Assembly: GCA_034509925.1 (NCBI GenBank)
Contig: CM067537.1
Coordinates: 5,280,501 to 5,344,500, forward strand
Length of the DNA stretch: 64,000 bases
Source of the DNA: Hirudinaria manillensis
Lineage: Eukaryota > Annelida > Clitellata > Hirudinida > Hirudinidae
Reading direction: 5' to 3'
Part shown: positions 1-64,000 of the stretch, piece by piece
Layout of the letters: each line of letters opens with the position of its first letter
How positions within the stretch are numbered: position 1 is the stretch's first letter
Notes under the pieces: generated by a model
Seen by the model: only the letters and a program-made list of their open reading frames with translations
What the model was told of the DNA's origin: nothing
The model's database searches: none
Translations under genes and position numbers: made by a program

Positions 1-3000
1 AGATTTGATGTTGCTATGGATCCTGAAATAATAATCGTTATGTATGAATTCGCCGTTGTTGACGATCCGCTAGAGGATGTTTCAGTGTTGGGATATGTTG
101 AAATCTCCGACGATGTTCCGTTCAAAGTATGCGTTGACGCATCGGTTGAATTTGACGTCGTACCTGTTGTAGAAGATGGAGAGATCGTGGATGTTCTGTT
201 GAAGGAAGTGGTCGACACGTTGATTGCAACTGGGGTAGTTGTAGATGATGATGTCATTGTCGAAGATCCGTTGAATGAAGTTGTCGACACGTTAACTGCA
301 AGCGGTGTAGTTGTCCAAGTCGTACCGTTGAATGGAGTCGATGAGAAATTGGCCGTCGTGAGATTAGATGTTGCTATGGATCCTGAAATAATAATCGTTA
401 TGTATGAATTCGTCGTTGTCGGTGATCCGTGGGATGATGTTTCAGTGTTGGGATATGTTGAAATCTCCGACGATGTTCTGTTCAAAGTATGCGTTGACGC
501 ATCGGTTGAATTTGACGTCGTACCTGTTGTGGAAGATGAAGATATTGTCGAAGTTCTGTTGAAGGAAGTGGTCGACACGTTGATTGCAACTGGGGTAGTT
601 GTAGATGATGATGTCATTGTCGAAGATCCGTTGAAAGAAGTTGTCGACTCGTTAACTGCAAGCGGTGAAGTTGTCCAAGTCGTACCGTTGAATGGTGTCG
701 ATGAGAAATTGGCCGTCGTGAGATTAGATGTTGCTATGGATCCTGAAATAATAATCGTTATGTATGAATTCGTCGTTGTCGGTGATCCGTGGGATGATGT
801 TTCAGTGTTGGGATATGTTGAAATCTCCGACGATGTTCTGTTCAAAGTATGCGTTGACGCATCGGTTGAATTTGACGTCGTACCTGTTGTGGAAGATGTG
901 TTGAAGGAAGTGGTCGACACGTTGATTGCAACTGGGGTAGTTGTAGACGATGATGTCATTGTCGAAGATCCGTTGAAAGAAGTTGTCGACTCGTTAACTG
1001 CAAGCGGTGTAGTTGTCCAAGTCGTACCGTTGAATGGAGTCGATGAGAAATTGGCCTTCGTGAGATTTGATGTTGCTATGGATCCTGAAATAATAATCGT
1101 TATGTATGAATTCGCCGTTGTTGACGATCCGCTAGAGGATGTTTCAGTGTTGGGATATGTTGAAATCTCCGACGATGTTCCGTTCAAAGTATGCGTTGAC
1201 GCATCGGTTGAATTTGACGTCGTACCTGTTGTAGAAGATGGAGAGATCGTGGATGTTCTGTTGAAGGAAGTGTTCGACACGTTGATTGCAACTGCGGTAG
1301 TTGTAGACGATGAAGTCGTACCGTTGAATGGTGTCGATGAGAAATTGGCCGTCGTGAGATTAGATGTTGCTATGGATCCTGAAATAATAATCGTTATGTA
1401 TGAATTCGTCGTTGTCGGTGATCCGTGGGATGATGTTTCAGTGTTGGGATATGTTGAAATCTCCGACGATGTTCCGTTCAAAGTATGCGTTGACGCATCG
1501 GTTGAATTTGACGTCGTACCTGTTGTGGAAGATGAAGATATTGTCGAAGTTCTGTTGAAGGAAGTGGTCGACACGTTGATTGCAACTGGGGTAGTTGTAG
1601 ACGATGATGTCATTGTCGAAGATCCGTTGAAAGATGTTATCGACTCGTTAACTGCAAGCGGTGAAGTTGTCCAAGTCGTACCGTTGAATGGAGTTGATGA
1701 GAAATTGGCTATCATGAGATTTGATGTTGCTATGGATACTGAAAGATTAATCGATGTATTTGCATTCGCTGTTGTCGGTGATCCGTTGGATGATGTTTCA
1801 GTGTTGAGAAATGTTGAAATCTCCGACGATGTTCCGTTCAAAGTATGCGTTGACGCATCGGTTGAATTTGACGTCGTACCTGTTGTGGAAGATGAAGATA
1901 TTGTCGAAGTTCTGTTGAAGGAAGTGGTCGACACGTTGATTGCAACTGGGGTAGTTGTAGACGATGATGTCATTGTCGAAGATCCGTTGAAAGATGTTAT
2001 CGACTCGTTAACTGCAAGCGGTGAAGTTGTCCAAGTCGTACCGTTGAATGGAGTTGATGAGAAATTGGCTATCATGAGATTTGATGTTGCTATGGATACT
2101 GAAAGATTAATCGATGTATTTGCATTCGCTGTTGTCGGTGATCCGTTGGATGATGTTTCAGTGTTGAGAAATGTTGAAATCTCCGACGATGTTCCGATGA
2201 AAGTATGCGTTGACGCATCGGTTGAATTTGACGTCGTACCTGTTGTGGAAAATGGAGAGATCGTCGATGTTCTGTTGAAGGAAGTGGTCGACACGTTGAT
2301 TGCAACTGGGGTAGTTGTAGATGATGATGTCATTGTCGAAGATCCGTTGAAAGAAGTTGTCGACTCGTTAACTGCAAGCGGTGTAGTTGTCCAAGTCGTA
2401 CCGTTGAATGGAGTCGATGAGAAATTGGCCTTCGTGAGATTTGATGTTTCTATGGATCCTGAAATAATAATCGTTATGTATGAATTCGCCGTTGTTGACG
2501 ATCCGCTAGAGGATGTTTCACTGTTGGGAAATATTGAGTTTGCCGACGATGTTCCGTTCAAAGTATGCGTTGACGCATCGGTTGAATTTGACGTCGTACC
2601 TGTTGTAGAAGATGGAGAGATCGTGGATGTTCTGTTGAAGGAAGTGTTCGACACGTTGATTGCAACTGCGGTAGTTGTAGACGATGATGTCATTGTCGAA
2701 GATCCGTTGAATGAAGTTGTCGACACGTTAACTGCAAGCGGTGTAGTTGTCCAAGTCGTACCGTTGAATGGTGTCGATGAGAAATTGGCCGTCGTGAGAT
2801 TAGATGTTGCTATGGATCCTGAAATAATAATCGTTATGTATGAATTCGTCGTTGTCGGTGATCCGTGGGATGATGTTTCAGTGTTGGGATATGTTGAAAT
2901 CTCCGACGATGTTCCGTTCAAAGTATGCGTTGACGCATCGGTTGAATTTGACGTCGTACCTGTTGTAGAAGATGGAGAGATCGTGGATGTTCTGTTGAAG

Positions 3001-6000
3001 GAAGTGTTCGACACGTTGATTGCAACTGCGGTAGTTGTAGACGATGATGTCATTGTCGAAGATCCGTTGAATGAAGTTGTCGACACGTTAACTGCAAGCG
3101 GTGTAGTTGTCCAAGTCGTACCGTTGAATGGTGTCGATGAGAAATTGGCCGTCGTGAGATTAGATGTTGCTATGGATCCTGAAATAATAATCGTTATGTA
3201 TGAATTCGTCGTTGTCGGTGATCCGTGGGATGATGTTTTCAGTGTTGGGATATGTTGAAATCTCCGACGATGTTCCGTTCAAAGTATGCGTTGACGCATC
3301 GGTTGAATTTGACGTCGTACCTGTTGTGGAAGATGAAGATATTGTCGAAGTTCTGTTGAAGGAAGTGGTCGACACGTTGATTGCAACTGGGGTAGTTGTA
3401 GACGATGATGTCATTGTCGAAGATCCGTTGAAAGATGTTATCGACTCGTTAACTGCAAGCGGTGAAGTTGTCCAAGTCGTACCGTTGAATGGAGTTGATG
3501 AGAAATTGGCTATCATGAGATTTGATGTTGCTATGGATACTGAAAGATTAATCGATGTATTTGCATTCGCTGTTGTCGGTGATCCGTTGGATGATGTTTC
3601 AGTGTTGAGAAATGTTGAAATCTCCGACGATGTTCCGTTCAAAGTATGCGTTGACGCATCGGTTGAATTTGACGTCGTACCTGTTGTGGAAGATGAAGAT
3701 ATTGTCGAAGTTCTGTTGAAGGAAGTGGTCGACACGTTGATTGCAACTGGGGTAGTTGTAGACGATGATGTCATTGTCGAAGATCCGTTGAAAGATGTTA
3801 TCGACTCGTTAACTGCAAGCGGTGAAGTTGTCCAAGTCGTACCGTTGAATGGAGTTGATGAGAAATTGGCTATCATGAGATTTGATGTTGCTATGGATCC
3901 TGAAATAATAATCGTTATGTATGAATTCGCCGTTGTTGACGATCCGCTAGAGGATGTTTCACTGTTGGGAAATATTGAGTTTGCCGACGATGTTCCGTTC
4001 AAAGTATGCGTTGACGCATCGGTTGAATTTGACGTCGTACCTGTTGTAGAAGATGGAGAGATCGTGGATGTTCTGTTGAAGGAAGTGTTCGACACGTTGA
4101 TTGCAACTGCGGTAGTTGTAGACGATGATGTCATTGTCGAAGATCCGTTGAATGAAGTTGTCGACACGTTAACTGCAAGCGGTGTAGTTGTCCAAGTCGT
4201 ACCGTTGAATGGTGTCGATGAGAAATTGGCCGTCGTGAGATTAGATGTTGCTATGGATCCTGAAATAACAATCGTTATGTATGAATTCGTCGTTGTCGGT
4301 GATCCGTGGGATGATGTTTCAGTGTTGGGATATGTTGAAATCTCCGACGATGTTCCGTTCAAAGTATGCGTTGACGCATCGGTTGAATTTGACGTCGTAC
4401 CTGTTGTAGAAGATGGAGAGATCGTGGATGTTCTGTTGAAGGAAGTGTTCGACACGTTGATTGCAACTGCGGTAGTTGTAGACGATGATGTCATTGTCGA
4501 AGATCCGTTGAATGAAGTTGTCGACACGTTAACTGCAAGCGGTGTAGTTGTCCAAGTCGTACCGTTGAATGGTGTCGATGAGAAATTGGCCGTCGTGAGA
4601 TTAGATGTTGCTATGGATCCTGAAATAATAATCGTTATGTATGAATTCGTCGTTGTCGGTGATCCGTGGGATGATGTTTCAGTGTTGGGATATGTTGAAA
4701 TCTCCGACGATGTTCCGTTCAAAGTATGCGTTGACGCATCGGTTGAATTTGACGTCGTACCTGTTGTGGAAGATGAAGATATTGTCGAAGTTCTGTTGAA
4801 GGAAGTGGTCGACACGTTGATTGCAACTGGGGTAGTTGTAGACGATGATGTCATTGTCGAAGATCCGTTGAAAGATGTTATCGACTCGTTAACTGCAAGC
4901 GGTGAAGTTGTCCAAGTCGTACCGTTGAATGGAGTTGATGAGAAATTGGCTATCATGAGATTTGATGTTGCTATGGATACTGAAAGATTAATCGATGTAT
5001 TTGCATTCGCTGTTGTCGGTGATCCGTTGGATGATGTTTCAGTGTTGAGAAATGTTGAAATCTCCGACGATGTTCCGTTCAAAGTATGCGTTGACGCATC
5101 GGTTGAATTTGACGTCGTACCTGTTGTGGAAGATGAAGATATTGTCGAAGTTCTGTTGAAGGAAGTGGTCGACACGTTGATTGCAACTGGGGTAGTTGTA
5201 GACGATGATGTCATTGTCGAAGATCCGTTGAAAGATGTTATCGACTCGTTAACTGCAAGCGGTGAAGTTGTCCAAGTCGTACCGTTGAATGGAGTTGATG
5301 AGAAATTGGCTATCATGAGATTTGATGTTGCTATGGATACTGAAAGATTAATCGATGTATTTGCATTCGCTGTTGTCGGTGATCCGTTGGATGATGTTTC
5401 AGTGTTGAGAAATGTTGAAATCTCCGACGATGTTCCGATGAAAGTATGCGTTGACGCATCGGTTGAATTTGACGTCGTACCTGTTGTGGAAAATGGAGAG
5501 ATCGTCGATGTTCTGTTGAAGGAAGTGGTCGACACGTTGATTGCAACTGGGGTAGTTGTAGATGATGATGTCATTGTCGAAGATCCGTTGAAAGAAGTTG
5601 TCGACTCGTTAACTGCAAGCGGTGTAGTTGTCCAAGTCGTACCGTTGAATGGAGTCGATGAGAAATTGGCCTTCGTGAGATTTGATGTTGCTATGGATCC
5701 TGAAATAATAATCGTTATGTATGAATTCGCCGTTGTTGACGATCCGCTAGAGGATGTTTCACTGTTGGGAAATATTGAGTTTGCCGACGATGTTCCGTTC
5801 AAAGTATGCGTTGACGCATCGGTTGAATTTGACGTCGTACCTGTTGTAGAAGATGGAGAGATCGTGGATGTTCTGTTGAAGGAAGTGGTCGACACGTTGA
5901 TTGCAACTGGGGTAGTTGTAGATGATGATGTCATTGTCGAAGATCCGTTGAATGAAGTTGTCGACACGTTAACTGCAAGCGGTGTAGTTGTCCAAGTCGT

Positions 6001-9000
6001 ACCGTTGAATGGTGTCGATGAGAAATTGGCCGTCGTGAGATTAGATGTTGCTATGGATCCTGAAATAATAATCGTTATGTATGAATTCGCCGTTGTTGAT
6101 GATCCGCTAGAGGATGTTTCACTGTTGGGAAATATTGAGTTTGCCGACGATGTTCCGTTCAAAGTATGCGTTGACGCATCGGTTGAATTTGACGTCGTAC
6201 CTGTTGTGGAAAATGGAGAGATCGTCGATGTTCTGTTGAAGGAAGTGGTCGACACGTTGATTGCAACTGGGGTAGTTGTAGATGATGATGTCATTGTCGA
6301 AGATCCGTTTAAAGAAGTTGTCGACTCGTTAACTGCAAGCGGTGTAGTTGTCCAAGTCGTACCGTTGAATGGTGTCGATGAGAAATTGGCCGTCGTGAGA
6401 TTAGATGTTGCTATGGATCCTGAAATAATAATCGTTATGTATGAATTCGCCGTTGTTGATGATCCGCTAAAGGATGTTTCAGTGTTGGGAAATGTTGAAA
6501 TCTCCGTCGATGTTCCGTTCAAAGTATGCATTGACCCATCGGTTGAATTTGACGTCGTACCTGTTGTGGAAGATGAAGATATTGTCGAAGTTCTGTTGAA
6601 GGAAGTGGTCGACACGTTGATTGCAACTGGGGTAGTTGTAGATGATGATGTCATTGTCGAAGATCCGTTGAAAGAAGTTGTCGACTCGTTAACTGCAAGC
6701 GGTGTAGTTGTCCAAGTCGTACCGTTGAATGGTGTCGATGAGAAATTGGCCGTCGTGAGATTAGATGTTGCTATGGATCCTGAAATAATAATCGTTATGT
6801 ATGAATTCGCCGTTGTCGGTGATCCGTGGGATGATGTTTCAGTGTTGGGATATGTTGAAATCTCCGACGATGTTCCGTTCAATGTATGCATTGACCCATC
6901 GGTTGAATTTGACGTCGTACCTGTTGTGGAAGATGAAGATATTGTCGAAGTTCTGTTGAAGGAAGTGGTCGACACGTTGATTGCAACTGGGGTAGTTGTA
7001 GATGATGATGTCATTGTCGAAGATCCGTTGAAAGAAGTTGTCGACTCGTTAACTGCAAGCGGTGTAGTTGTCCAAGTCGTACCGTTGAATGGAGTCGATG
7101 AGAAATTGGCCGTCGTGAGATTTGATGTTGCTATGGATCCTGAAACAGTAATCGTTATGTATGAATTCGCAGTTGTTGATGATCCGCTAGAGGATGTTTA
7201 ACTGTTGGGAAATATTGAGTTTGCCGACGATGTTCCGTTCAAAGTATGCGTTGACGCATCGGTTGAATTTGACGTCGTACCTGTTGTGGAAGATGAAGAT
7301 ATTGTCGAAGTTCTGTTGAAGGAAGTGGTCGACACGTTGATTGCAACTGGGGTAGTTGTAGACGATGATGTCATTGTCGAAGATCCGTTGAAAGATGTTG
7401 TCGACTCGTTAACTGCAAGCGGTGTAGTTGTCCAAGTCGTACCGTTGAATGGAGTCGATGAGAAATTGGCCTTCGTGAGATTTGATGTTGCTATGGATCC
7501 TGAAATAATAATCGTTATGTATGAATTCGCCGTTGTTGACGATCCGCTAGAGGATGTTTCACTGTTGGGAAATATTGAGTTTGCCGACGATGTTCCGTTC
7601 AAAGTATGCGTTGACGCATCGGTTGAATTTGACGTCGTACCTGTTGTAGAAGATGGAGAGATCGTGGATGTTCTGTTGAAGGAAGTGGTCGACACGTTGA
7701 TTGCAACTGCGGTAGTTGTAGATGATGATGTCATTGTCGAAGATCCGTTGAATGAAGTTGTCGACACGTTAACTGCAAGCGGTGTAGTTGTCCAAGTCGT
7801 ACCGTTGAATGGAGTCGATGAGAAATTGGCCGTCGTGAGATTTGATGTTGCTATGGATCCTGAAACAGTAATCGTTATGTATGAATTCGCAGTTGTTGAT
7901 GATCCGCTAGAGGATGTTTAACTGTTGGGAAATATTGAGTTTGCCGACGATGTTCCGTTCAAAGTATGCGTTGACGCATCGGTTGAATTTGACGTCGTAC
8001 CTGTTGTGGAAGATGAAGATATTGTCGAAGTTCTGTTGAAGGAAGTGGTCGACACGTTGATTGCAACTGGGGTAGTTGTAGACGATGATGTCATTGTCGA
8101 AGATCCGTTGAAAGATGTTGTCGACTCGTTAACTGCAAGCGGTGTAGTTGTCCAAGTCGTACCGTTGAATGGAGTCGATGAGAAATTGGCCTTCGTGAGA
8201 TTTGATGTTGCTATGGATCCTGAAATAATAATCGTTATGTATGAATTCGCCGTTGTTGACGATCCGCTAGAGGATGTTTCACTGTTGGGAAATATTGAGT
8301 TTGCCGACGATGTTCCGTTCAAAGTATGCGTTGACGCATCGGTTGAATTTGACGTCGTACCTGTTGTAGAAGATGGAGAGATCGTGGATGTTCTGTTGAA
8401 GGAAGTGGTCGACACGTTGATTGCAACTGCGGTAGTTGTAGATGATGATGTCATTGTCGAAGATCCGTTGAATGAAGTTGTCGACACGTTAACTGCAAGC
8501 GGTGTAGTTGTCCAAGTCGTACCGTTGAATGGTGTCGATGAGAAATTGGCCGTCGTGAGATTAGATGTTGCTATGGATCCTGAAATAATAATCGTTATGT
8601 ATGAATTCGCCGTTGTCGGTGATCCGTGGGATGATGTTTCAGTGTTGGGATATGTTGAAATCTCCGACGATGTTCCGTTCAATGTATGCATTGACCCATC
8701 GGTTGAATTTGACGTCGTACCTGTTGTGGAAGATGAAGATATTGTCGAAGTTCTGTTGAAGGAAGTGGTCGACACGTTGATTGCAACTGGGGTAGTTGTA
8801 GATGATGATGTCATTGTCGAAGATCCGTTGAAAGAAGTTGTCGACTCGTTAACTGCAAGCGGTGTAGTTGTCCAAGTCGTACCGTTGAATGGAGTCGATG
8901 AGAAATTGGCCTTCGTGAGATTTGATGTTGCTATGGATCCTGAAATAATAATCGTTATGTATGAATTCGCCGTTGTTGACGATCCGCTAGAGGATGTTTC

Positions 9001-12000
9001 ACTGTTGGGAAATATTGAGTTTGCCGACGATGTTCCGTTCAAAGTATGCGTTGACGCATCGGTTGAATTTGACGTCGTACCTGTTGTAGAAGATGGAGAG
9101 ATCGTGGATGTTCTGTTGAAGGAAGTGGTCGACACGTTGATTGCAACTGGGGTAGTTGTAGATGATGATGTCATTGTCGAAGATCCGTTGAATGAAGTTG
9201 TCGACACGTTAACTGCAAGCGGTGTAGTTGTCCAAGTCGTACCGTTGAATGGTGTCGATGAGAAATTGGCCGTCGTGAGATTAGATGTTGCTATGGATCC
9301 TGAAATAATAATCGTTATGTATGAATTCGCCGTTGTTGATGATCCGCTAGAGGATGTTTCACTGTTGGGAAATATTGAGTTTGCCGACGATGTTCCGTTC
9401 AAAGTATGCGTTGACGCATCGGTTGAATTTGACGTCGTACCTGTTGTAGAATATGGAGAGATCGTGGATGTTCTGTTGAAGGAAGTGGTCGACACGTTGA
9501 TTGCAACTGCGGTAGTTGTAGATGATGATGTCATTGTCGAAGATCCGTTGAATGAAGTTGTCGACACGTTAACTGCAAGCGGTGTAGTTGTCCAAGTCGT
9601 ACCGTTGAATGGTGTCGATGAGAAATTGGCCGTCGTGAGATTAGATGTTGCTATGGATCCTGAAATGATAATCGTTATGTATGAATTCGCCGTTGTCGGT
9701 GATCCGTGGGATGATGTTTCAGTGTTGGGATATGTTGAAATCTCCGACGATGTTCCGTTCAATGTATGCATTGACCCATCGGTTGAATTTGACGTCGTAC
9801 CTGTTGTGGAAGATGAAGATATTGTCGAAGTTCTGTTGAAGGAAGTGGTCGACACGTTGATTGCAACTGGGGTAGTTGTAGATGATGATGTCATTGTCGA
9901 AGATCCGTTGAAAGAAGTTGTCGACTCGTTAACTGCAAGCGGTGTAGTTGTCCAAGTCGTACCGTTGAATGGTGTCGATGAGAAATTGGCCGTCGTGAGA
10001 TTAGATGTTGCTATGGATCCTGAAATAATAATCGTTATGTATGAATTCGCCGTTGTTGATGATCCGCTAGAGGATGTTTCACTGTTGGGAAATATTGAGT
10101 TTGCCGACGATGTTCCGTTCAAAGTATGCGTTGACGCATCGGTTGAATTTGACGTCGTACCTGTTGTAGAATATGGAGAGATCGTGGATGTTCTGTTGAA
10201 GGAAGTGGTCGACACGTTGATTGCAACTGCGGTAGTTGTAGATGATGATGTCATTGTCGAAGATCCGTTGAATGAAGTTGTCGACACGTTAACTGCAAGC
10301 GGTTGTAGTTGTCCAAGTCGTACCGTTGAATGGTGTCGATGAGAAATTGGCCGTCGTGAGATTAGATGTTGCTATGGATCCTGAAATGATAATCGTTATG
10401 TATGAATTCGCCGTTGTCGGTGATCCGTGGGATGATGTTTCAGTGTTGGGATATGTTGAAATCTCCGACGATGTTCCGTTCAATGTATGCATTGACCCAT
10501 CGGTTGAATTTGACGTCGTACCTGTTGTGGAAGATGAAGATATTGTCGAAGTTCTGTTGAAGGAAGTGGTCGACACGTTGATTGCAACTGGGGTAGTTGT
10601 AGATGATGATGTCATTGTCGAAGATCCGTTGAAAGAAGTTGTCGACTCGTTAACTGCAAGCGGTGTAGTTGTCCAAGTCGTACCGTTGAATGGAGTCGAT
10701 GAGAAATTGGCCGTCGTGAGATTTGATGTTGCTATGGATCCTGAAACAGTAATCGTTATGTATGAATTCGCAGTTGTTGATGATCCGCTAGAGGATGTTT
10801 AACTGTTGGGAAATATTGAGTTTGCCGACGATGTTCCGTTCAAAGTATGCGTTGACGCATCGGTTGAATTTGACGTCGTACCTGTTGTAGAAGATGGAGA
10901 GATCGTGGATGTTCTGTTGAAGGAAGTGGTCGACACGTTGATTGCAACTGCGGTAGTTGTAGATGATGATGTCATTGTCGAAGATCCGTTGAATGAAGTT
11001 GTCGACACGTTAACTGCAAGCGGTGTAGTTGTCCAAGTCGTACCGTTGAATGGAGTCGATGAGAAATTGGCCGTCGTGAGATTTGATGTTGCTATGGATC
11101 CTGAAACAGTAATCGTTATGTATGAATTCGCAGTTGTTGATGATCCGCTAGAGGATGTTTAACTGTTGGGAAATATTGAGTTTGCCGACGATGTTCCGTT
11201 CAAAGTATGCGTTGACGCATCGGTTGAATTTGACGTCGTACCTGTTGTGGAAGATGAAGATATTGTCGAAGTTCTGTTGAAGGAAGTGGTCGACACGTTG
11301 ATTGCAACTGGGGTAGTTGTAGACGATGATGTCATTGTCGAAGATCCGTTGAAAGATGTTGTCGACTCGTTAACTGCAAGCGGTGTAGTTGTCCAAGTCG
11401 TACCGTTGAATGGAGTCGATGAGAAATTGGCCTTCGTGAGATTTGATGTTGCTATGGATCCTGAAATAATAATCGTTATGTATGAATTCGCCGTTGTTGA
11501 CGATCCGCTAGAGGATGTTTCACTGTTGGGAAATATTGAGTTTGCCGACGATGTTCCGTTCAAAGTATGCGTTGACGCATCGGTTGAATTTGACGTCGTA
11601 CCTGTTGTAGAAGATGGAGAGATCGTGGATGTTCTGTTGAAGGAAGTGGTCGACACGTTGATTGCAACTGCGGTAGTTGTAGATGATGATGTCATTGTCG
11701 AAGATCCGTTGAATGAAGTTGTCGACACGTTAACTGCAAGCGGTGTAGTTGTCCAAGTCGTACCGTTGAATGGTGTCGATGAGAAATTGGCCGTCGTGAG
11801 ATTAGATGTTGCTATGGATCCTGAAATAATAATCGTTATGTATGAATTCGCCGTTGTCGGTGATCCGTGGGATGATGTTTCAGTGTTGGGATATGTTGAA
11901 ATCTCCGACGATGTTCCGTTCAATGTATGCATTGACCCATCGGTTGAATTTGACGTCGTACCTGTTGTGGAAGATGAAGATATTGTCGAAGTTCTGTTGA

Positions 12001-24000: not shown

Positions 24001-27000
24001 GGAGTCGATGAGAAATTGGCCGTCGTGAGATTTGATGTTGCTATGGATCCTGAAACAGTAATCGTTATGTATGAATTTGCAGTTGTTGATGATCCGCTAG
24101 AGGATGTTTAACTGTTGGGAAATATTGAGTTTGCGGACGATGTTCCGATAAAAGTATGCGTTGACGCATCGGTTGAATTTGACATCGCACCTGTTGTGGA
24201 AGATGAAGATATCGTCGAAGTTCTGTTGATGGAAGTGGTCGACACGTTGATTGCAACTGGGGTAGTTGTAGATGATGATGTCATTGTCGAAGATCCGTTG
24301 AATGATTTTGTCGACACGTTAACTGCAAGCGGTGTAGTTGTCCAAGTCGTACCGTTGAATGGTGTCGATGAGAAATTGGCCGTCGTGAGATTAGATGTTG
24401 CTATGGATCCTGAAATAATAATCGTTATGTATGAATTCGACGTTGTCGGTGATCCGTGGGATGATGTTTCAGTGTTGGGATATGTTGAAATCTCCGACGA
24501 TGTTCCGTTCAATGTATGCATTGACCCATCGGTTGAAATTGACGTCGTACCTGTTGTGGAAGATGAAGATATCGTCGTTGTTCTGTTGAAGGAAGTGGTC
24601 GACACGTTGATTGCAACTGGGGTAGTTGTAGATGATGATGTCATTGTCGAAGATCCGTTGAAAGTAGTTGTCGACTCGTTAACTGCAAGCGGTGTAGTTG
24701 TCCAAGTCGTACCGTTGAATGGAGTCGATGAGAAATTGGCCGTCGTGAGATTTGATGTTGCTATGGATCCTGAAACAGTAATCGTTATGTATGAATTTGC
24801 AGTTGTTGATGATTCGCTAGAGGATGTTTAACTGTTGGGAAATATTGAGTTTGCCGACGATGTTCCGATAAAAGTATGCGTTGACGCATCGGTTGAATTT
24901 GACATCGCACCTGTTGTGGAAGATGAAGATATCGTCGAAGTTCTGTTGAAGGAAGTGGTTGACACGTTGATTGCAACTGGGGTAGTTGTAGATGATGATG
25001 TCATTGTCGATGATCCGTTGAAAGTAGTTGTCGACTCGTTAACTGCAAGCGGTGTAGTTGTCCAAGTCGTACCGTTGAATGGAGTCGATGAGAAATTGGC
25101 CGTCGTGAGATTTGATGTTGCTATGGATCCTGAAACAGTAATCGTTATGTATGAATTTGCAATTGTTGATGATCCGCTAGAGGATGTTTAACTGTTGGGA
25201 AATATTGAGTTTGCCGACGATGTTCCGATAAAAGTATGCGTTGACGCATCGGTTGAATTTGACGTCGTACTTGTTGTGGAAGATGAAGAGATCCTGGATG
25301 TTCTGTTGAAGGAAGTGGTCGACACGTTGATTGCAACTGGGGTGGTTGTAGATGATGATGTCATTGTCGAAGATCCGTTGAAAGAAGTTGTCGACTCGTT
25401 AACTGCAAGCGGTGAAGTTGTCCAAGTCGTACCGTTGAATGGAGTCGATGAGAAATTGGCCGTCGTGAGATTTGATGTTGCTATGGATCCTGAAACAGTA
25501 ATCGTTATGTATGAATTTGCAGTTGTTGATGATCCGCTAGAGGATGTTTAACTGTTGGGAAATATTGAGTTTGCGGACGATGTTCCGATAAAAGTATGCG
25601 TTGACGCATCGGTTGAATTTGACATCGCACCTGTTGTGGAAGATGAAGATATCGTCGAAGTTCTGTTGATGGAAGTGGTCGACACGTTGATTGCAACTGG
25701 GGTAGTTGTAGATGATGATGTCATTGTCGAAGATCCGTTGAATGATTTTGTCGACACGTTAACTGCAAGCGGTGTAGTTGTCCAAGTCGTACCGTTGAAT
25801 GGTGTCGATGAGAAATTGGCCGTCGTGAGATTAGATGTTGCTATGGATCCTGAAATAATAATCGTTATGTATGAATTCGACGTTGTCGGTGATCCGTGGG
25901 ATGATGTTTCAGTGTTGGGATATGTTGAAATCTCCGACGATGTTCCGTTCAATGTATGCATTGACCCATCGGTTGAAATTGACGTCGTACCTGTTGTGGA
26001 AGATGAAGATATCGTCGTTGTTCTGTTGAAGGAAGTGGTCGACACGTTGATTGCAACTGGGGTAGTTGTAGATGATGATGTCATTGTCGAAGATCCGTTG
26101 AAAGTAGTTGTCGACTCGTTAACTGCAAGCGGTGTAGTTGTCCAAGTCGTACCGTTGAATGGAGTCGATGAGAAATTGGCCGTCGTGAGATTTGATGTTG
26201 CTATGGATCCTGAAACAGTAATCGTTATGTATGAATTTGCAGTTGTTGATGATCCGCTAGAGGATGTTTAACTGTTAGGAAATATTGAGTTTGCCGACGA
26301 TGTTCCGATAAAAGTATGCGTTGACGGTTGAATTTGACGTCGTACCTGTTGTGGAAGATGAAGAGATCGTGGATGTTCTGTTGAAGGAAGTGGTCGACAC
26401 GTTGATTGCAACTGGGGTGGTTGTAGATGATGATGTCATTGTCGAAGATCCGTTGAAAGAAGTTGTCGACTCGTTATCTGCAAGCGGTGAAGTTGTCCAA
26501 GTCGTACCGTTGAATGGAGTCGATGAGAAATTGGCCGTCGTGAGATTTGATGTTGCTATGGATCCTGAAACAGTAATCGTTATGTATGAATTTGCAGTTG
26601 TTGATGATCCGCTAGAGGATGTTTAACTGTTGGGAAATATTGAGTTTGCGGACGATGTTCCGATAAAAGTATGCGTTGACGCATCGGTTGAATTTGACAT
26701 CGCACCTGTTGTGGAAGATGAAGATATCGTCGAAGTTCTGTTGATGGAAGTGGTCGACACGTTGATTGCAACTGGGGTAGTTGTAGATGATGATGTCATT
26801 GTCGAAGATCCGTTGAATGAAGTTGTCGACACGTTAACTGCAAGCGGTGTAGTTGTCCAAGTCGTACCGTTGAATGGTGTCGATGAGAAATTGGCCGTCG
26901 TGAGATTAGATGTTGCTATGGATCCTGAAATAATAATCGTTATGTATGAATTCGACGTTGTCGGTGATCCGTGGGATGATGTGTCAGTGTTGGGATATGT

Positions 27001-30000
27001 TGAAATCTCCGACGATGTTCCGTTCAATGTATGCATTGACCCATCGGTTGAAATTGACGTCGTACCTGTTGTGGAAGATGAAGATATCGTCGTTGTTCTG
27101 TTGAAGGAAGTGGTCGACACGTTGATTGCAACTGGGGTAGTTGTAGATGATGATGTCATTGTCGATGATCCGTTGAATGAAGTTGTCGACACGTTAACTG
27201 CAAGCGGTGTAGTTGTCCAAGTCGTACCGTTGAATGGAGTTGATGAGAAATTGGCCGTCGTGAGATTAGATGTTGCTATGGATCCTGAAATAATAATCGT
27301 TATGTATGAATTCGCCGTTGTTGATGATCCGCTAAAGGATGTTTCAGTGTTGGGAAATGTTGAAATCTCCGTCGATGTTCCGGTCAAAGTATGCGTTTAC
27401 GCATCGGTTGAATTTGACGTCGTACCTGTTGTGGAAGATGAAGAGATCGTGGATGTTCTGTTGAAGGAAGTGGTCGACACGTTGATTGCAACTGGGGTAG
27501 TTGTAGATGATGATGTCATTGTCGAAGATCCGTTGAATGAAGTTGTCGACAGGTTAACTGCAAGCCGTGTAGTTGTCCAAGTCGTACCGTTGAATGGAGT
27601 CGATGAGAAATTGGCCGTCGTGAGATTAGATGTTGCTATGGATCCTGAAATAATAATCGTTATGTATGAATTCGCCGTTGTCGGTGATCCGCTAGAGGAT
27701 GTTTCAGTGTTGGGATATGTTGAAATCTCGGACGATGTTCCGATAAATGTATGCATTGACCCATCGGTTGAATTTGACGTCGTACCTGTTGTGGAAGATG
27801 AAGATATCGTCGATGTTCTGTTGAAGGATGTGGTCGACACGTTGATTGCAACTGGGGTAGTTGTAGATGATGATGTCATTGTCGAAGATCCGTTGAATGA
27901 AGTTGTCGACACGTTAACTGCAAGCGGTGTAGTTGTCCAAGTCGTACCGTTGAATGGTGTCGATGAGAAATTGGCCGTCGTGAGATTAGATGTTGCTATG
28001 GATCCTGAAATAATAATCGTTATGTATGAATTCGCCGTTGTTGATGATCCGTGGGATGATGTTTCAGTGTTGGGATATGTTGGAATCTCCGACGATGTTC
28101 CATTCAATGTATGCATTGACCCATCGGTTGAATTTGACGTCGTACCTGTTGTGGAAGATGAAGAGATCGTGGATGTTCTGTTGAAGGAAGTGGTCGACAC
28201 GTTGATTGCAACTGGGGTAGTTGTAGATGATGATGTCATTGTCGATGATCCGTTGAATGAAGTTGTCGACACGTTAACTGCAAGCGGTGTAGTTGTCCAA
28301 GTCGTACCGTTGAATGGAGTTGATGAGAAATTGGCCGTCGTGAGATTAGATGTTGCTATGGATCCTGAAATAATAATCGTTATGTATGAATTTGCCGTTG
28401 TTGATGATCCGCTAAAGGATGTTTCAGTGTTGGGAAATGTTGAAATCTCCGTCGATGTTCCGGTCAAAGTATGCGTTCACGCATCGGTTGAATTTGACGT
28501 CGTACCTGTTGTGGAAGATGAAGAGATCGTGGATGTTCTGTTGAAGGAAGTGGTCGACACGTTGATTGCAACTGGGGTAGTTGTAGATGATGATGTCATT
28601 GTCGAAGATCCGTTGAATGAAGTTGTCGACAGGTTAACTGCAAGCCGTGTAGTTGTCCAAGTCGTACCGTTGAATGGAGTCGATGAGAAATTGGCCGTCG
28701 TGAGATTAGATGTTGCTATGGATCCTGAAATAATAATCGTTATGTATGAATTCGCCGTTGTCGGTGATCCGTGGGATGATGTTTCAGTGTTGGGATATGT
28801 TGAAATCTCCGACGATGTTCCGTTCAATGTATGCATTGACCCATCGGTTGAATTTGACGTCGTACCTGTTGTGGAAGATGAAGATATCGTCGATGTTCTG
28901 TTGAAGGATGTGGTCGACACGTTGATTGCAACTGGGGTAGTTGTAGATGATGATGTCATTGTCGAAGATCCGTTGAATGAAGTTGTCGACACGTTAACTG
29001 CAAGCGGTGTAGTTGTCCAAGTCGTACCGTTGAATGGTGTCGATGAGAAATTGGCCGTCGTGAGATTAGATGTTGCTATGGATCCTGAAATAATAATCGT
29101 TATGTATGAATTCGCCGTTGTTGATGATCCGCTAAAGGATGTTTCAGTGTTGGGAAATGTTGGAATCTCCGACGATGTTCCATTCAATGTATGCATTGAC
29201 CCATCGGTTGAATTTGACGTCGTACCTGTTGTGGAAGATGAAGAGATCGTGGATGTTCTGTTGAAGGAAGTGGTCGACACGTTGATTGCAACTGGGGTAG
29301 TTGTAGATGATGATGTCATTGTCGATGATCCGTTGAATGAAGTTGTCGACACGTTAACTGCAAGCGGTGTAGTTGTCCAAGTCGTACCGTTGAATGGAGT
29401 TGATGAGAAATTGGCCGTCGTGAGATTAGATGTTGCTATGGATCCTGAAATAATAATCGTTATGTATGAATTTGCCGTTGTTGATGATCCGCTAAAGGAT
29501 GTTTCAGTGTTGGGAAATGTTGAAATCTCCGTCGATGTTCCGGTCAAAGTATGCGTTCACGCATCGGTTGAATTTGACGTCGTACCTGTTGTGGAAGATG
29601 AAGAGATCGTGGATGTTCTGTTGAAGGAAGTGGTCGACACGTTGATTGCAACTGGGGTAGTTGTAGATGATGATGTCATTGTCGAAGATCCGTTGAATGA
29701 AGTTGTCGACAGGTTAACTGCAAGCCGTGTAGTTGTCCAAGTCGTACCGTTGAATGGAGTCGATGAGAAATTGGCCGTCGTGAGATTAGATGTTGCTATG
29801 GATCCTGAAATAATAATCGTTATGTATGAATTCGCCGTTGTCGGTGATCCGTGGGATGATGTTTCAGTGTTGGGAAATGTTGAAATCTCCGTCGATGTTC
29901 CGGTCAAAGTATGCGTTGACGCATCGGTTGAATTTGACGTCGTACCTGTTGTGGAAGATGAAGAGATCGTGGATGTTCTGTTGAAGGAAGTGGTCGACAC

Positions 30001-33000
30001 GTTGATTGCAACTGGGGTAGTTGTAGATGATGATGTCATTGTCGAAGATCCGTTGAATGAAGTTGTCGACAGGTTAACTGCAAGCCGTGTAGTTGTCCAA
30101 GTCGTACCGTTGAATGGAGTCGATGAGAAATTGGCCGTCGTGAGATTAGATGTTGCTATGGATCCTGAAATAATAATCGTTATGTATGAATTCGCCGTTG
30201 TCGGTGATCCGTGGGATGATGTTTCAGTGTTGGGATATGTTGAAATCTCCGACGATGTTCCGTTCAATGTATGCATTGACCCATCGGTTGAATTTGACGT
30301 CGTACCTGTTGTGGAAGATGAAGACATCGTCGATGTTCTGTTGAAGGATGTGGTCGACACGTTGATTGCAACTGGGGTAGTTGTAGATGATGATGTCATT
30401 GTCGAAGATCCGTTGAATGAAGTTGTCGACACGTTAACTGCAAGCGGTGTAGTTGTCCAAGTCGTACCGTTGAATGGTGTCGATGAGAAATTGGCCGTCG
30501 TGAGATTAGATGTTGCTATGGATCCTGAAATAATAATCGTTATGTATGAATTCGCCGTTGTTGATGATCCGCTAAAGGATGTTTCAGTGTTGGGAAATGT
30601 TGGAATCTCCGACGATGTTCCATTCAATGTATGCATTGACCCATCGGTTGAATTTGACGTCGTACCTGTTGTGGAAGATGAAGAGATCGTGGATGTTCTG
30701 TTGAAGGAAGTGGTCGACACGTTGATTGCAACTGGGGTAGTTGTAGATGATGATGTCATTGTCGATGATCCGTTGAATGAAGTTGTCGACACGTTAACTG
30801 CAAGCGGTGTAGTTGTCCAAGTCGTACCGTTGAATGGAGTTGATGAGAAATTGGCCGTCGTGAGATTAGATGTTGCTATGGATCCTGAAATAATAATCGT
30901 TATGTATGAATTCGCCGTTGTTGATGATCCGCTAAAGGATGTTTCAGTGTTGGGAAATGTTGAAATCTCCGTCGATGTTCCGGTCAAAGTATGCGTTCAC
31001 GCATCGGTTGAATTTGACGTCGTACCTGTTGTGGAAGATGAAGAGATCGTGGATGTTCTGTTGAAGGAAGTGGTCGACACGTTGATTGCAACTGGGGTAG
31101 TTGTAGATGATGATGTCATTGTCGAAGATCCGTTGAATGAAGTTGTCGACAGGTTAACTGCAAGCCGTGTAGTTGTCCAAGTCGTACCGTTGAATGGAGT
31201 CGATGAGAAATTGGCCGTCGTGAGATTAGATGTTGCTATGGATCCTGAAATAATAATCGTTATGTATGAATTCGCCGTTGTCGGTGATCCGTGGGATGAT
31301 GTTTCAGTGTTGGGATATGTTGAAATCTCCGACGATGTTCCGTTCAATGTATGCATTGACCCATCGGTTGAAATTGACGTCGTACCTGTTGTGGAAGATG
31401 AAGATATCGTCGATGTTCTGTTGAAGGAAGTGGTCGACACGTTGATTGCAACTGGGGTAGTTGTAGATGATGATGTCATTGTCGATGATCCGTTGAATGA
31501 AGTTGTCGACACGTTAACTGCAAGCGGTGTAGTTGTCCAAGTCGTACCGTTGAATGGAGTTGATGAGAAATTGGCCGTCGTGAGATTAGATGTTGCTATG
31601 GATCCTGAAATAATAATCGTTATGTATGAATTCGCCGTTGTTGATGATCCGCTAAAGGATGTTTCAGTGTTGGGAAATGTTGGAATCTCCGACGATGTTC
31701 CGTTCAATGTATGCATTGACCCATCGGTTGAATTTGACGTCGTACCTGTTGTGGAAGATGAAGACATCGTCGATGTTCTGTTGAAGGATGTGGTCGACAC
31801 GTTGATTGCAACTGGGGTAGTTGTAGATGATGATGTCATTGTCGAAGATCCGTTGAATGAAGTTGTCGACACGTTAACTGCAAGCGGTGTAGTTGTCCAA
31901 GTCGTACCGTTGAATGGTGTCGATGAGAAATTGGCCGTCGTGAGATTAGATGTTGCTATGGATCCTGAAATAATAATCGTTATGTATGAATTCGCCGTTG
32001 TTGATGATCCGCTAAAGGATGTTTCAGTGTTGGGAAATGTTGGAATCTCCGACGATGTTCCGGTCAAAGTATGCGTTCACGCATCGGTTGAATTTGACGT
32101 CGTACCTGTTGTGGAAGATGAAGAGATCGTGGATGTTCTGTTGAAGGAAGTGGTCGACACGTTGATTGCAACTGGGGTAGTTGTAGATGATGATGTCATT
32201 GTCGATGATCCGTTGAATGAAGTTGTCGACACGTTAACTGCAAGCGGTGTAGTTGTCCAAGTCGTACCGTTGAATGGAGTTGATGAGAAATTGGCCGTCG
32301 TGAGATTAGATGTTGCTATGGATCCTGAAATAATAATCGTTATGTATGAATTCGCCGTTGTTGATGATCCGCTAAAGGATGTTTCAGTGTTGGGAAATGT
32401 TGGAATCTCCGACGATGTTCCGGTCAAAGTATGCGTTCACGCATCGGTTGAATTTGACGTCGTACCTGTTGTGGAAGATGAAGAGATCGTGGATGTTCTG
32501 TTGAAGGAAGTGGTCGACACGTTGATTGCAACTGGGGTAGTTGTAGATGATGATGTCATTGTCGATGATCCGTTGAATGAAGTTGTCGACACGTTAACTG
32601 CAAGCGGTGTAGTTGTCCAAGTCGTACCGTTGAATGGAGTTGATGAGAAATTGGCCGTCGTGAGATTAGATGTTGCTATGGATCCTGAAATAATAATCGT
32701 TATGTATGAATTCGCCGTTGTTGATGATCCGCTAAAGGATGTTTCAGTGTTGGGAAATGTTGGAATCTCCGACGATGTTCCGGTCAATGTATGCATTGAC
32801 ACATCGGTTGAATTTGACGTCGTACCTGTTGTGGAAGATGAAGAGATCGTGGATGTTCTGTTGAAGGAAGTGGTCGACACGTTGATTGCAACTGGGGTAG
32901 TTGTAGATGATGATGTCATTGTCGATGATCCGTTGAATGAAGTTGTCGACACGTTAACTGCAAGCGGTGTAGTTGTCCAAGTCGTACCGTTGAATGGAGT

Positions 33001-35028
33001 TGATGAGAAATTGGCCGTCGTGAGATTAGATGTTGCTATGGATCCTGAAATAATAATCGTTATGTATGAATTCGCCGTTGTTGATGATCCGCTAAAGGAT
33101 GTTTCAGTGTTGGGAAATGTTGGAATCTCCGACTTTGACCCGGTCAATGTGTGCGTCGACATATCGGTTGTATTTGATGTTGAACCTGTTCCAGAAGATG
33201 ATGAGATTGTCGAAGTTCCGTATAAAGAAGAGTTCGACACGTTAACTGCAAGCGGTGTTGTTGTCCAACTCGTACCGTTGAATGGAGTCGATGATGCATA
33301 TACCGTCGTGAGATTTGATGTTGCTATGGAACCTGAAACGGGAATCCTTTTAGTTGTATTCGCCTTTATTGTTGAAACATTAGAGAATGTTTCATTTTTG
33401 GAAAATGTTTATGACGCCGATTTTGTCCTATTCACTGGATGTATTGATGTATCGGTTGAATTTATAGTCGTACCTGTTGTAGAATATGATGAAATCGTCG
33501 AAGTTCTTTTGAAAGAAGTTGTCGACACTTTGTTTGCAAGTGTTGTTGTTGTCCATGTCTTGCCATTGAAAGGAGTCGATGAGGAATTAGCCGTTATAAG
33601 AGTTGATCTTTCAGTGGTACCTTGTAAAGAAAAATTTGTAAATTATTTTGTTTTGCAACTGATTCGTTGAATGGTGCCATCGTCTATTTGTTGATTCATA
33701 TTCGAGATATTTTACTAAGTTGATTTGATTATGAAATGGTTTGTAATTTATTGTTTTAACTTTACGTCATACCTGTAGTAGATGATGGTGATTTCGTCGA
33801 CGATCCATTTATTGAATTGGTCGACATGTTCATTGGAACTGGTTTAGTCGTCCATGTCTTACCGTATTTTAGAGTCGATGTGGAATTAGTCTTTTCAATA
33901 TTTGATGCCCCTGTTGATCCTGTAATATTTGAGAATTTATTTTTTTTTGGCTCTTTATTCCTTTTAATGATGTCATAAGTATTTAATGGTCTTGTCTTCT
34001 TTTTTTTTTATTTTTTCTGATGTCCGTTATGGTTGATATAGTTGTTTTTGTTTTCTTACCATTTGTTAGTTCTTCTGTTGATGAATATTCTTTGGTCCTT
34101 TGCATATTATTGTTTTGAGTTGATACTGTACTATTCTCCTGGTCGAAATCTATGGCTGTCAAATAGGATGTTAATCCATTGTTGTTGTTTATGGCTGTGC
34201 TAAATGAGGATAGTACAGGCGGTTTCAGAGTGGTATTTGCTGGTTGTCCTGAAATTACACAATTTTAAACAATTTTTACAACTTGTTACTTACGATGTGT
34301 ATGACATTATATTAAGATCTATATATTGCTAATACTTTTGGCTATTTTTAATTTATAGTTTAATTTTCTTTCATTTATTCTGTCGTTTTCATATTTTCAA
34401 TTTACATTGAAATCTTCTTAAATAAATAGATACAAGACATAAAATGAACTTTGACTATAAGTCTAACATATTTATTTACATAATTACATTTTGAATCTGT
34501 TACTTTGTATATCAACAAAAATTTTCCTCACACGCATGAATTCACTTTCATATATCAAATAAGTTTACCTTCTGCAGTCTTCACAATCGCTGTATTTATG
34601 ATAGACTTAAGATTACGCGGAAATTCTAAATACCAGTTACAAAATTTTATACGGACTAGATTAATAAACTTTTTCCGGCATGCTTCGGTTTGTGCTAGTA
34701 TTTGGATGTCGTGTTCGCAACCCTCTCTGTGCCGCCAAGAGTGACCAGTGGAATGTTGTACCTTCTCATCCGCATGGCTACATAACGCCTGTATTTATAT
34801 ATATAAATACTCATACAACTGTAACTTTCATATCTTACTTGCTCTTTCAACCGAAAGGACCATGACTATGGATCCGCTGAAACCAATGCCACAACAGAAA
34901 CACAGAAATGCCAGGAATCTGGCATGGGTTCTTTTGCGACGGTACCATAATGTCCTTACAATTATTCTCTTATGTCTCACTCCAGCTATTTCCTGAATTC
35001 CTGTTTTCCAGTCCTGAATGTCGCTCAT
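1..35028 (-). CDS. Giant mucin-like glycoprotein gene built from ~92 tandem cassette exons (3' part missing)
   Basis: Inferred gene model, right to left: exon 1 35028-34839, exon 2 34248-34060, three 147-bp exons (33919-33773, 33620-33474, 33332-33186), then about 92 exons of nominally 219 bp repeating every 360 bp from 33044, and a partial exon at 22-1. All join in phase 1. Each array exon codes 73 residues, more than half Ser/Thr, with about seven N-glycosylation sequons (NLT, NFS, NGT, NES, NGS, NVS, NRT). Acceptors read TTATTATTTCAG or similar, donors CAG then GTACGA. Stops and most frame-breaking indels lie in the 141-bp introns. Exon 1 starts after an in-frame TAG, and has a basic stretch (RRKRTHAR) and then about 23 hydrophobic residues, suggesting a type II signal anchor with a long glycosylated ectodomain. 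Function is unknown; an adhesive or protective mucin is a guess. Exon 1 is the least certain part. Confidence 0.62.
1372..5700. repeat. Higher-order duplication with 3,241-bp offset
   Basis: Rare unit variants near 1372-2450 recur at 4613-5690 in the same order with an offset of 3,241 bp (nine units plus one base). Examples are the units with ctatggatactgaaagatta and the single unit with gttccgatgaaagtatgcg (2196 and 5437). The extra base is the T insertion near 3236, which lies between the copies. A similar nine-unit offset links 7925 to 11166. This indicates block duplication of whole groups of units rather than single-unit slippage. Confidence 0.75.
22270..27300. repeat. Recent 2,515-bp tandem segmental duplication inside the array
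   Basis: Private variants repeat with an offset of exactly 2,515 bp. They include gattcgctagagg (22297 and 24812), the 5-bp deletion before the donor (about 23810 and 26325), the unit with cgtacttgttg (about 22750 and 25265), and the ttgatggaag variant (23152 and 25667). Seven units minus 5 bp equals 2,515 bp. The copies look identical through most of their length by eye, so the duplication is young, or is an assembly duplication. Confidence 0.85.
27390..32450. repeat. Three-unit (1,080-bp) higher-order repeat
   Basis: A marker unit with gcgttcacgc (gcgtttacgc in the first copy), which gives an in-frame stop on the minus strand, recurs at about 27397, 28477, 29557, 30997, 32077 and 32437. 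Spacings are 1080, 1080, 1440, 1080 and 360 bp. Other markers move with it: caagccgtgtag one unit later and tgttggaatctcc two units later. This is a second amplification mode, distinct from the nine-unit blocks on the left. Confidence 0.8.
33186..33919 (-). repeat. Diverged edge copies of the array unit (three 147-bp exons)
   Basis: Three diverged copies lie at the 5' end of the minus-strand gene. Each has a 49-codon Ser/Thr/Asn-rich exon between a CAG or AAG acceptor and a CAG/GT donor: 33919-33773, 33620-33474 and 33332-33186. They lack 24 codons that the array exon has gained (the NESTTSFN... segment). The intervals are 152, 141 and 141 bp. The first two carry in-frame TAA codons, at about 33643 and 33409, outside the exon frames. 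The 152-bp interval is not Ser/Thr-like at all, so it looks like an ordinary AT-rich intron. Confidence 0.75.
34060..34248 (-). CDS. Exon 2 of the mucin-like gene
   Basis: On the minus strand this 189-bp segment lies between a good acceptor (tgtaatttcag) and a strong donor (AATG then GTAAGA). It is open in the phase-1 frame that joins both neighbours. It codes 63 residues rich in Ser, Thr and Asn with sequons such as NTT and NST, but has no similarity to the repeat unit. It is too short and lacks a start codon, so it would be missed by a plain ORF scan. It is included in the overall gene entry and given separately because it is the clearest evidence for minus-strand splicing outside the repeat. 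Confidence 0.6.
34839..35028 (-). CDS. Candidate first exon with signal-anchor-like segment
   Basis: The ATG at 35028 is the first after an in-frame TAG. The exon codes 63 residues and ends at GCAA/GTAAGA in phase 1, matching the acceptor at 34248. Residues 30-38 are strongly basic. About residues 39-61 are hydrophobic (FLAFLCFCCGIGFSGSIVMVLS). Under the positive-inside rule this suits a type II signal anchor. Caveat: the DNA near 34870 reads ctatggatccgctgaaa, almost the same as the array's splice-acceptor junction, so part of this exon may be a relic of a repeat unit rather than an independent first exon. Confidence 0.4.
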
Positions 35029-44039: not shown

Positions 44040-44260
44040 TGTTGTAACCCGGGGTCTGATGAATTAATTAACGTAAGGATATCTTTATTGGATTTAACTA
44101 ATGGCAAATACGGCTGGACGATTTGGTCGATTGCTTGTCCTGACGGAACTGCCTAATGACTCGAATCGCTAGATACGACTTCGAAATAAAAGATTCTGAA
44201 TATTAACTAAACTTAATTAATTAATTATTTAATTAATTAATTAATGTCAGGGATCCAACA
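44040..44260 (-). repeat. LTR (3' LTR of the element)
   Basis: The LTR is 221 bp and bounded on the plus strand by tgttgtaaccc and ggatccaaca, so TG...CA in either orientation. It is identical by eye to 49438-49658. On the element's strand it contains AATAAA (plus-strand tttatt near 44083). The interior carries a TTAA-rich stretch at about 44210-44245. Confidence 0.96.
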
Positions 44261-44273
44261 TTACCCCCTCCTT
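44261..44273 (-). other. Polypurine tract
   Basis: On the minus strand AAGGAGGGGGTAA sits directly before the 3' LTR. This is the standard position and composition of the primer for plus-strand DNA synthesis in LTR retrotransposons. It overlaps the stop codon of the downstream reading frame. Confidence 0.9.
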
Positions 44274-49357: not shown

Positions 49358-49417
49358 TTCTGTCGTTAAAACTCGCTGTTTTTACCTCTAGTGAATCGAT
49401 ATCCCTTTACGACGCTA

Positions 49418-49437: not shown

Positions 49438-49658
49438 TGTTGTAACCCGGGGTCTGATGAATTAATTAACGTAAGGATATCTTTATTGGATTTAACTAAT
49501 GGCAAATACGGCTGGACGATTTGGTCGATTGCTTGTCCTGACGGAACTGCCTAATGACTCGAATCGCTAGATACGACTTCGAAATAAAAGATTCTGAATA
49601 TTAACTAAACTTAATTAATTAATTATTTAATTAATTAATTAATGTCAGGGATCCAACA
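49438..49658 (-). repeat. LTR (5' LTR of the element)
   Basis: The LTR is 221 bp and identical by eye to 44040-44260. As the 5' LTR of the minus-strand element it would drive transcription leftwards, away from angiomotin. Its outer end lies 190 bp from the angiomotin start codon. Confidence 0.96.

Positions 49659-60730: not shown

Positions 60731-64000
<3,270 letters not shown>

Follow-up and report, generated by a model that had tools for sequence, protein, structure and literature searches.

A predicted giant mucin-like gene with about 140 near-identical repeat exons and coding-like introns in a hirudinid leech

A tandem array of 360-bp units in the genome of a hirudinid leech is likely, as we read its DNA, to form part of a single giant mucin-like gene on the minus strand, in which the repeat exons are spliced, the array has grown by unequal exchange and the introns derive from Ser/Thr coding repeats. 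The predicted gene has 146 exons, which comprise 68,443 nt and about 22,800 codons, and spans 89.7 kb. The initial annotation had placed a single giant gene within positions 1 to 35,028; a gene is indeed predicted there, but it extends to about 2.6 times that length, and its last exon is a giant run of repeats without interruption. The coding-like character of the introns, of which 111 of 141 are open in the exon's frame with a consensus that is 53% Ser/Thr, is a point that the initial annotation missed.

Results

The window is the whole stretch of 64,000 nucleotides that was analysed (C12:5,280,501-5,344,500, in a 148.4-Mb genome); the sequence examined beyond it extended 100 kb before and 10 kb after, and negative coordinates denote bases before the window. 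A period of 360 gave the best fit to positions 1-35,028 among periods of 2-2,999 (identity 0.845), and TRF reported 88.8 copies at 1,313-33,251 with 94% matches. The array continues for about 16.9 kb past the window edge, to about -16,900 (C12 near 5,263,600), and constitutes the first half of the predicted gene. Over the whole array, acceptor and donor motifs (142 of each) alternate on the minus strand at distances of 219 and 141 bp; they were located with patterns that tolerate 8 substitutions and themselves contain the splice motifs, which makes the search mildly circular. Pairing of these motifs gave 140 exon-like and 141 intron-like segments, along with two unpaired intervals that were excluded from the counts. 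The predicted exons are 219 bp long in 132 of 140 cases and the predicted introns 141 bp long in 135 of 141; the 8 exons and 6 introns of other lengths were excluded from the column statistics. This spacing, together with the donor tally given below, bears out the unit first described, with a CAG acceptor and a CAG or CAA donor 219 bp apart on the minus strand. The count of about 92 near-identical exons was also close, as 93 lie wholly in the window, and it rises to 140 across the array.

A second array, with a 255-bp unit, adjoins the first and reaches about -54,550. Genome-wide, 142 of 145 scored candidates matched the 360-bp family and 147 of 149 matched the 255-bp family, all of them on C12 at this locus. 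One edge unit, at -16,756 to about -17,000 (C12 about 5,263,500-5,263,750), looks recombinant: an exon start runs into intron-type sequence that carries no donor, leaving an in-frame Ser/Thr-rich stretch. The gene model leaves out this doubtful segment, with its exon-like start and no clear donor.

Complete units of the 360-bp array fall into 95 distinct sequences among 140. Identical units, compared at spacings of 1-11 units, were commonest nine units apart (15 pairs) and then four units apart (9 pairs), and identical intron deletions recur in several copies. Such recurrence is the pattern to be expected if blocks of several units have been exchanged unequally. Each exon moves along with its intron and the exons are symmetric, so the array could change in length without loss of frame.

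In the gene model, four leading exons precede the 140 array exons, after which come a diverged edge exon and, lastly, an exon of 37.3 kb (Table 1). All junctions are in phase 1 except those of three array exons carrying a one-base insertion. Five further minus-strand exons proposed earlier as joining in the same phase were recovered as the four leading exons and the short array unit, which also joins in phase 1. Exon 1 encodes one hydrophobic segment, near residues 40-60, with a peak hydropathy of 2.2 over 19 aa; judged by hydropathy only, it may be a signal anchor or signal peptide. An AG precedes this exon and could serve as an acceptor. Exons 1 and 2 occur once each in the genome. The predicted last exon holds 146 starts of an 85-aa Ser/Thr repeat, separated by 143 intervals of 255 bp and two of 256 bp. 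Two one-base insertions, both in T runs, divide it into open frames of 434, 1,528 and 10,570 aa and are perhaps assembly errors. If real, the two insertions in the second array and the three exonic ones in the first would break the frame.

Table 1. Coordinates and strands of predicted features of the locus and of other features of the window.
Feature	Position	Strand	Remarks
Predicted exon 1 (first coding)	34839..35028	-	ATG, basic N-terminus, open, GT donor, ends in phase 1
Predicted exon 2, 189 bp, phase 1-1	34060..34248	-	Splice motifs and phase
Predicted exon 3 (147 bp, phase 1-1), a diverged repeat	33773..33919	-	Flanking introns AT-rich (24% and 26% GC)
Predicted exon 4 (147 bp), a diverged repeat	33474..33620	-	Ends match array acceptor and donor positions
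360-bp array, part in the window	1..33332	-	93 complete exons (mostly 219 bp), introns mostly 141 bp
Short array unit	33186..33332	-	Joins in phase 1
Example array exon, 219 bp	32466..32684	-	
Example 141-bp intron	32325..32465	-	In-frame TGA in this copy
Predicted edge exon	-17,185 to -17,298	-	
Predicted last exon, 37.3 kb	-17,377 to TAA at -54,667 to -54,669	-	
Plus-strand ORF, 2,346 aa	26630..33670	+	
Gypsy-like retrotransposon frames	44,272-49,381	-	Protease, RT, RNase H, integrase, SAP domain, zinc knuckle
Gln-rich ORF, about 1,000 aa	49,750-52,821	+	No Pfam match at 0.01

The donors of the array are highly uniform. Among the 141 introns, CAG/GTACGA was found 121 times, CAG/GTGCGA 7 times, CAG/GTAAGA and CAG/GTATGA 5 times each, CAA/GTACGA twice and the poor CAG/GTTCAA once, and every intron ends in TTTCAG (141 of 141). 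Both GT and TTTCAG are invariant in the 135 introns of 141 bp, and position +5 is G in 134 of them. The consensus of the 360-bp unit contains one good donor and one good acceptor on the minus strand and no comparable donor or acceptor on the plus strand; the 255-bp unit has no good donor or acceptor on either strand. When the unit was shuffled 3,000 times by mononucleotide, 0.2% of the shuffled sequences had a donor and an acceptor of at least this strength on one strand, a figure that, like the donor and acceptor scores, depends on approximate splice-site weights. By these approximate weights the array donor is moderate, with a score of 3.89 out of a possible 8.66. Near base 54 of each array exon (minus strand), a conserved AACG/GTACGACTTGG is similar to the real donor, shares its phase 1 and is a possible weak alternative donor (score 1.5 vs 3.9, approximate weights). 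The exon-exon junction word of the predicted spliced product, TCTTCYACAACAGGATCCATAGCAAC, has 0 occurrences in the genome, and the word of the retained form, TCTTCYACAACAGGTACGACGTCAAA, has 95 in the locus.

The gene was said from the outset to lie opposite a long ORF, and that plus-strand ORF is real, at 2,346 aa. We give next to no credence to the idea that this ORF is itself the gene. It is open over its full length and its frame in the exons has the same third-position excess (p.005), but the codon-position test cannot pick a strand because the open frames of the two strands share their third positions. Its translation also scores 37.1 bits against Pfam DUF3303 (cut-off 21.2), although no single stretch passes alone, and the score is probably the sum of many weak repeat matches. 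Exon pN/pS was 1.18 in the open plus frame and 0.77 on the minus strand, and in a 10-kb piece of the second array ORFs of at least 60 aa were present on the minus strand only, the plus strand being closed. A plus-strand gene was rejected on account of this closure and of the lack of comparable plus-strand splice sites in the unit, and we judge the ORF to be a by-product of the repeat. The minus strand was chosen because of its splice motifs, the phase-1 chain of exons, the second array, the slight contrast in pN/pS and the resulting protein.

Patterns of variation differed between exon and intron copies. Among 63 distinct 219-bp exon copies, diversity at the three codon positions was.024,.041 and.075 (permutation p.005), whereas 49 distinct intron copies in the read-through frame gave.080,.144 and.112 (p.49). 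This third-position contrast also held within each part of the array, with p.001 for exons and.48 for introns in the 5' part and p.03 for exons and.44 for introns in the 3' part; the edge intron at 33,473 was also excluded from this comparison. One of the two other intron frames gave p.046 in the third-position test. Variable sites numbered 71 of 219 in exons and 79 of 141 in introns (p 1e-5), and the middle of the introns had a diversity of 0.103 against 0.044 for exons, with introns about twice as variable. Synonymous and nonsynonymous changes in the 141-bp segments numbered 30 and 71, compared to 30.2 and 71.9 expected, and therefore showed no synonymous bias. The second array had a third-position excess of its own (p.007). 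At the outer edge of the 360-bp array, donor and acceptor positions that match those of the array flank an AT-rich intron (26% GC). Taken as they stand, these patterns of sequence evolution support splicing of the 141-bp segments, and with it the earlier proposal of symmetric phase-1 exons on the minus strand separated by 141-bp introns.

Loss of the reading frame was also unequal. Open copies number 136 of 140 among the exons and, when read in the exon's frame, 111 of 141 among the introns; the remaining 30 introns carry stops or frameshifts. Closed introns are concentrated in the 5' part of the array (29 of 85) as opposed to the 3' part (1 of 56). At the level of copies the difference in closure between introns and exons has p 1.6e-6, a value that counts duplicated copies. 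The raw number of stops, 31 in introns vs 3 in exons, is likewise inflated because duplicated copies are counted, and two of the three exonic stops follow a one-base insertion in the same exon. Since the repeat copies are related, copy counts overstate the evidence; a hand count of independent closures gave 7 in introns (4 stops, 3 indels) vs 4 in exons (1 stop, 3 one-base insertions), with p.09. An exon pN/pS of only 0.77 likewise counts against the favored reading, and stop variants in exons are not clearly depleted (1 seen vs 1.9 expected).

This last figure, the presence of some stops and frameshifts and the failure to find a homologue among the candidates searched in the protein collection would all be expected if the array were a satellite that stems from a mucin gene and has decayed or is not transcribed. 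We nevertheless regard such a satellite as very improbable, given a third-position excess that is specific to the exons and, in the last exon, an open frame of 10,570 aa. A simple satellite was rejected on the exon-specific excess and the 136 open exons of 140.

It might instead be that the array is not spliced at all and, in the manner of the second array, forms a single long exon that codes for 120-aa repeats, with splice-like motifs that are incidental or rarely used. Length is divisible by three in 135 of the 141 intron segments, and their openness (in the 3' part, 55 of 56 are open) and Ser/Thr-rich consensus would follow directly. We consider this unlikely, as the read-through frame has no third-position excess and diversity is doubled in both parts of the array, GT and TTTCAG are invariant, and matching sites border an ordinary intron at the array edge. 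Retention of every segment is impossible because 30 of 141 copies are closed. If the segments were alternatively retained, so that the array consisted of exitrons and each repeat gave either 73 or 120 aa, the same length, openness and Ser/Thr content would be accounted for, and the GC content of 42%, between that of exons and ordinary introns, and the moderate donor are exitron features as described in PMC4484396. The closed copies count against this version as well, and the segments, unlike the exitrons described in that source, have no synonymous bias; we think it quite unlikely to be correct.

The introns nevertheless resemble coding sequence more than ordinary introns of the gene do. Their Ser/Thr content in the exon's frame averages 48% over all 141 copies, and the 53% of the consensus was reached by none of 20,000 dinucleotide shuffles (20 +/- 5.5%). 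GC content is 42% for array introns and 45% for exons, as against 24-29% for three ordinary introns of this gene. Direct DNA similarity between intron and exon is weak and not significant, with 33 of 500 shuffles as good. The edge intron that begins at 33,473 shares 70% identity with the intron consensus and contains a stop; the intron beyond it is AT-rich and weakly similar (score 13, where 300 shuffles had a mean of 3.9 and a highest value of 17). Because the introns are so often open and so rich in Ser/Thr, coding ancestry is likely and retention is a live alternative, and the absence of codon-position bias argues against present coding constraint. The 141-bp segments therefore probably descend from Ser/Thr coding sequence or sometimes still serve as such. 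From the edge and array introns we infer intronization of a coding repeat, followed by multiplication and then by decay. In a fission-yeast survey, most candidate intronizations were overturned by transcripts (PMC3629103), which cautions against over-trusting this reading of the leech introns.

The predicted protein is rich in hydroxyl residues. Ser and Thr make up 53% of residues in the 136 open exons, 55% of the consensus 73-aa exon repeat and 62% of the 85-aa repeat, which also contains 8% Pro. In the open exons 928 of 950 Asn lie within N-X-S/T sequons, which, because the exon copies are near-identical, amounts to independent evidence from only about 7 of 7 sites. When the N-terminal 126 aa and two copies of either repeat were scanned against Pfam, nothing passed the cut-off, no VWD or SEA domain was found and one weak match lay below threshold; we call the protein mucin-like and not a mucin because neither domain was found in the parts scanned. 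Six joined repeat exons had no homologue at 1e-5 among the 8,000 candidates of the protein collection sharing most words, and the N-terminus had none at 0.01 among 35 candidates; both searches took candidates of 0.55-1.75 times the query length.

Elsewhere in the window, the Gypsy-like retrotransposon has two overlapping reading frames, and 33-bp TTAA-type repeats lie near both of its sides (44,213-44,245 and 49,611-49,643). Exon-like ORFs at 61,141-61,867 on the plus strand look by eye like acetyl-CoA acyltransferase (thiolase). Rfam and tRNA scans of the window gave no matches; a search with the SL1 RNA family carries no weight, as the family matched in no control genome. In the wider genome, the mitochondrial-type COX1 is 97% identical to that of Poecilobdella javanica and 96% to that of Hirudinaria manillensis, which rank highest among the 120 matches listed; the leech is probably H. 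manillensis or closely related to it. A second full-length COX1 was seen at C9:3,026,446-3,027,786, on a contig of nuclear size, with a score equal to that of the copy on the 15.6-kb contig C23 (408.4 bits); it represents either a recent insertion into the nuclear genome or an artefact of assembly.

Discussion

Under the single-gene reading that we favor, the product would be a giant mucin-like glycoprotein that is probably membrane-anchored. The 141-bp segments would be removed from most transcripts. The spliced array would encode a rod of some 140 x 73 aa with a high content of N-glycan sequons and of Ser/Thr, to which the last exon would add a second rod, of about 12,400 aa, with abundant possible sites for O-glycans. 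The array would expand by unequal exchange of blocks that combine exons with introns, so that whole modules are gained or lost with the frame intact. The introns would have arisen when repeat sequence coding for Ser/Thr acquired splice sites, and about a fifth of them would later have gained stops or frameshifts. Skipping of the predicted repeat exons, which the initial annotation proposed as cassettes, is possible. A bolder version, which we put forward tentatively and think rather doubtful, is that the gene has been caught in mass intronization: a repeat gained splice sites, duplication multiplied the new intron about 140-fold, and a unit can yield 73 aa if spliced or, in copies that are still open, 120 aa if retained.

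Large genes with blocks of repeated similar exons include those for human MUC16, apolipoprotein(a), titin and nebulin. A closer likeness is chicken Muc13, which has at least 12 near-identical Ser/Thr-rich repeats of 20 aa, one per exon, in a region with an assembly gap, and for which control of repeat-domain length by splicing was proposed (PMC1552070). Both genes have Ser/Thr-rich tandem repeats that each occupy a near-identical exon (predicted in the leech), but the leech array has 140 repeats, mostly of 73 aa, and the SEA domain described for Muc13 was not found in the scanned parts of the leech protein (PMC1552070). As the term is used in that source, a mucin has a PTS domain plus a VWD or SEA domain. 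Repeats bounded by splice sites, a single phase and the codon-position contrast point, as a prediction from DNA, to one repeat per exon in the leech too.

The SmPoMuc genes of Schistosoma mansoni, a multigene family known from transcript data, contain up to about 20 genomic copies of a 27-bp exon 2 with its introns, in units of about 1 kb (PMC2576457). There, as in the leech, repeat exon and introns are tandemly duplicated and homogenised, and repeat number in SmPoMuc is variable; the leech gene differs from that description in being a single locus with 219-bp exons and 141-bp coding-like introns, predicted from DNA (PMC2576457). The spider silk genes MaSp2 and Flag also encode repetitive proteins and have almost identical introns throughout, but their product is silk and not a Ser/Thr- and sequon-rich protein (PMC3522626). 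Exitrons share with the leech introns a coding composition, a length divisible by three and a GC content between exon and intron, and differ, as described, in the synonymous bias and in the 30 closed copies of 141 found here (PMC4484396).

The initial annotation knew of no described gene with so many near-identical cassette exons. Its claim of novelty holds for scale and is otherwise too strong; one mucin repeat per near-identical exon and a possible role of splicing in setting length had already been published (PMC1552070; PMC2576457 for tandem exon-plus-intron repeats). A literature search, with most subscription papers outside its scope, found no case with such a copy number or with coding-like introns, and a search combining leech, mucin, genome and tandem repeat had no leech-gene title among the matches listed. 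The repeated-exon type of mucin is thus known already, and what is new is its scale here and the coding-like nature of the introns.

Standard annotation of genes may well fail on a locus of this kind. If the array is spliced, one gene has seen an intron gain multiplied about 140-fold. Open and closed copies coexist in it, and the passage from coding sequence to an ordinary intron would be traceable step by step within a single locus. Mass intronization, if true, would let one locus produce mucins in a great many lengths and glycan densities. The locus offers a natural test of how the spliceosome orders 140 near-identical exons and splice sites, and of whether splicing sets the repeat length of a surface glycoprotein.
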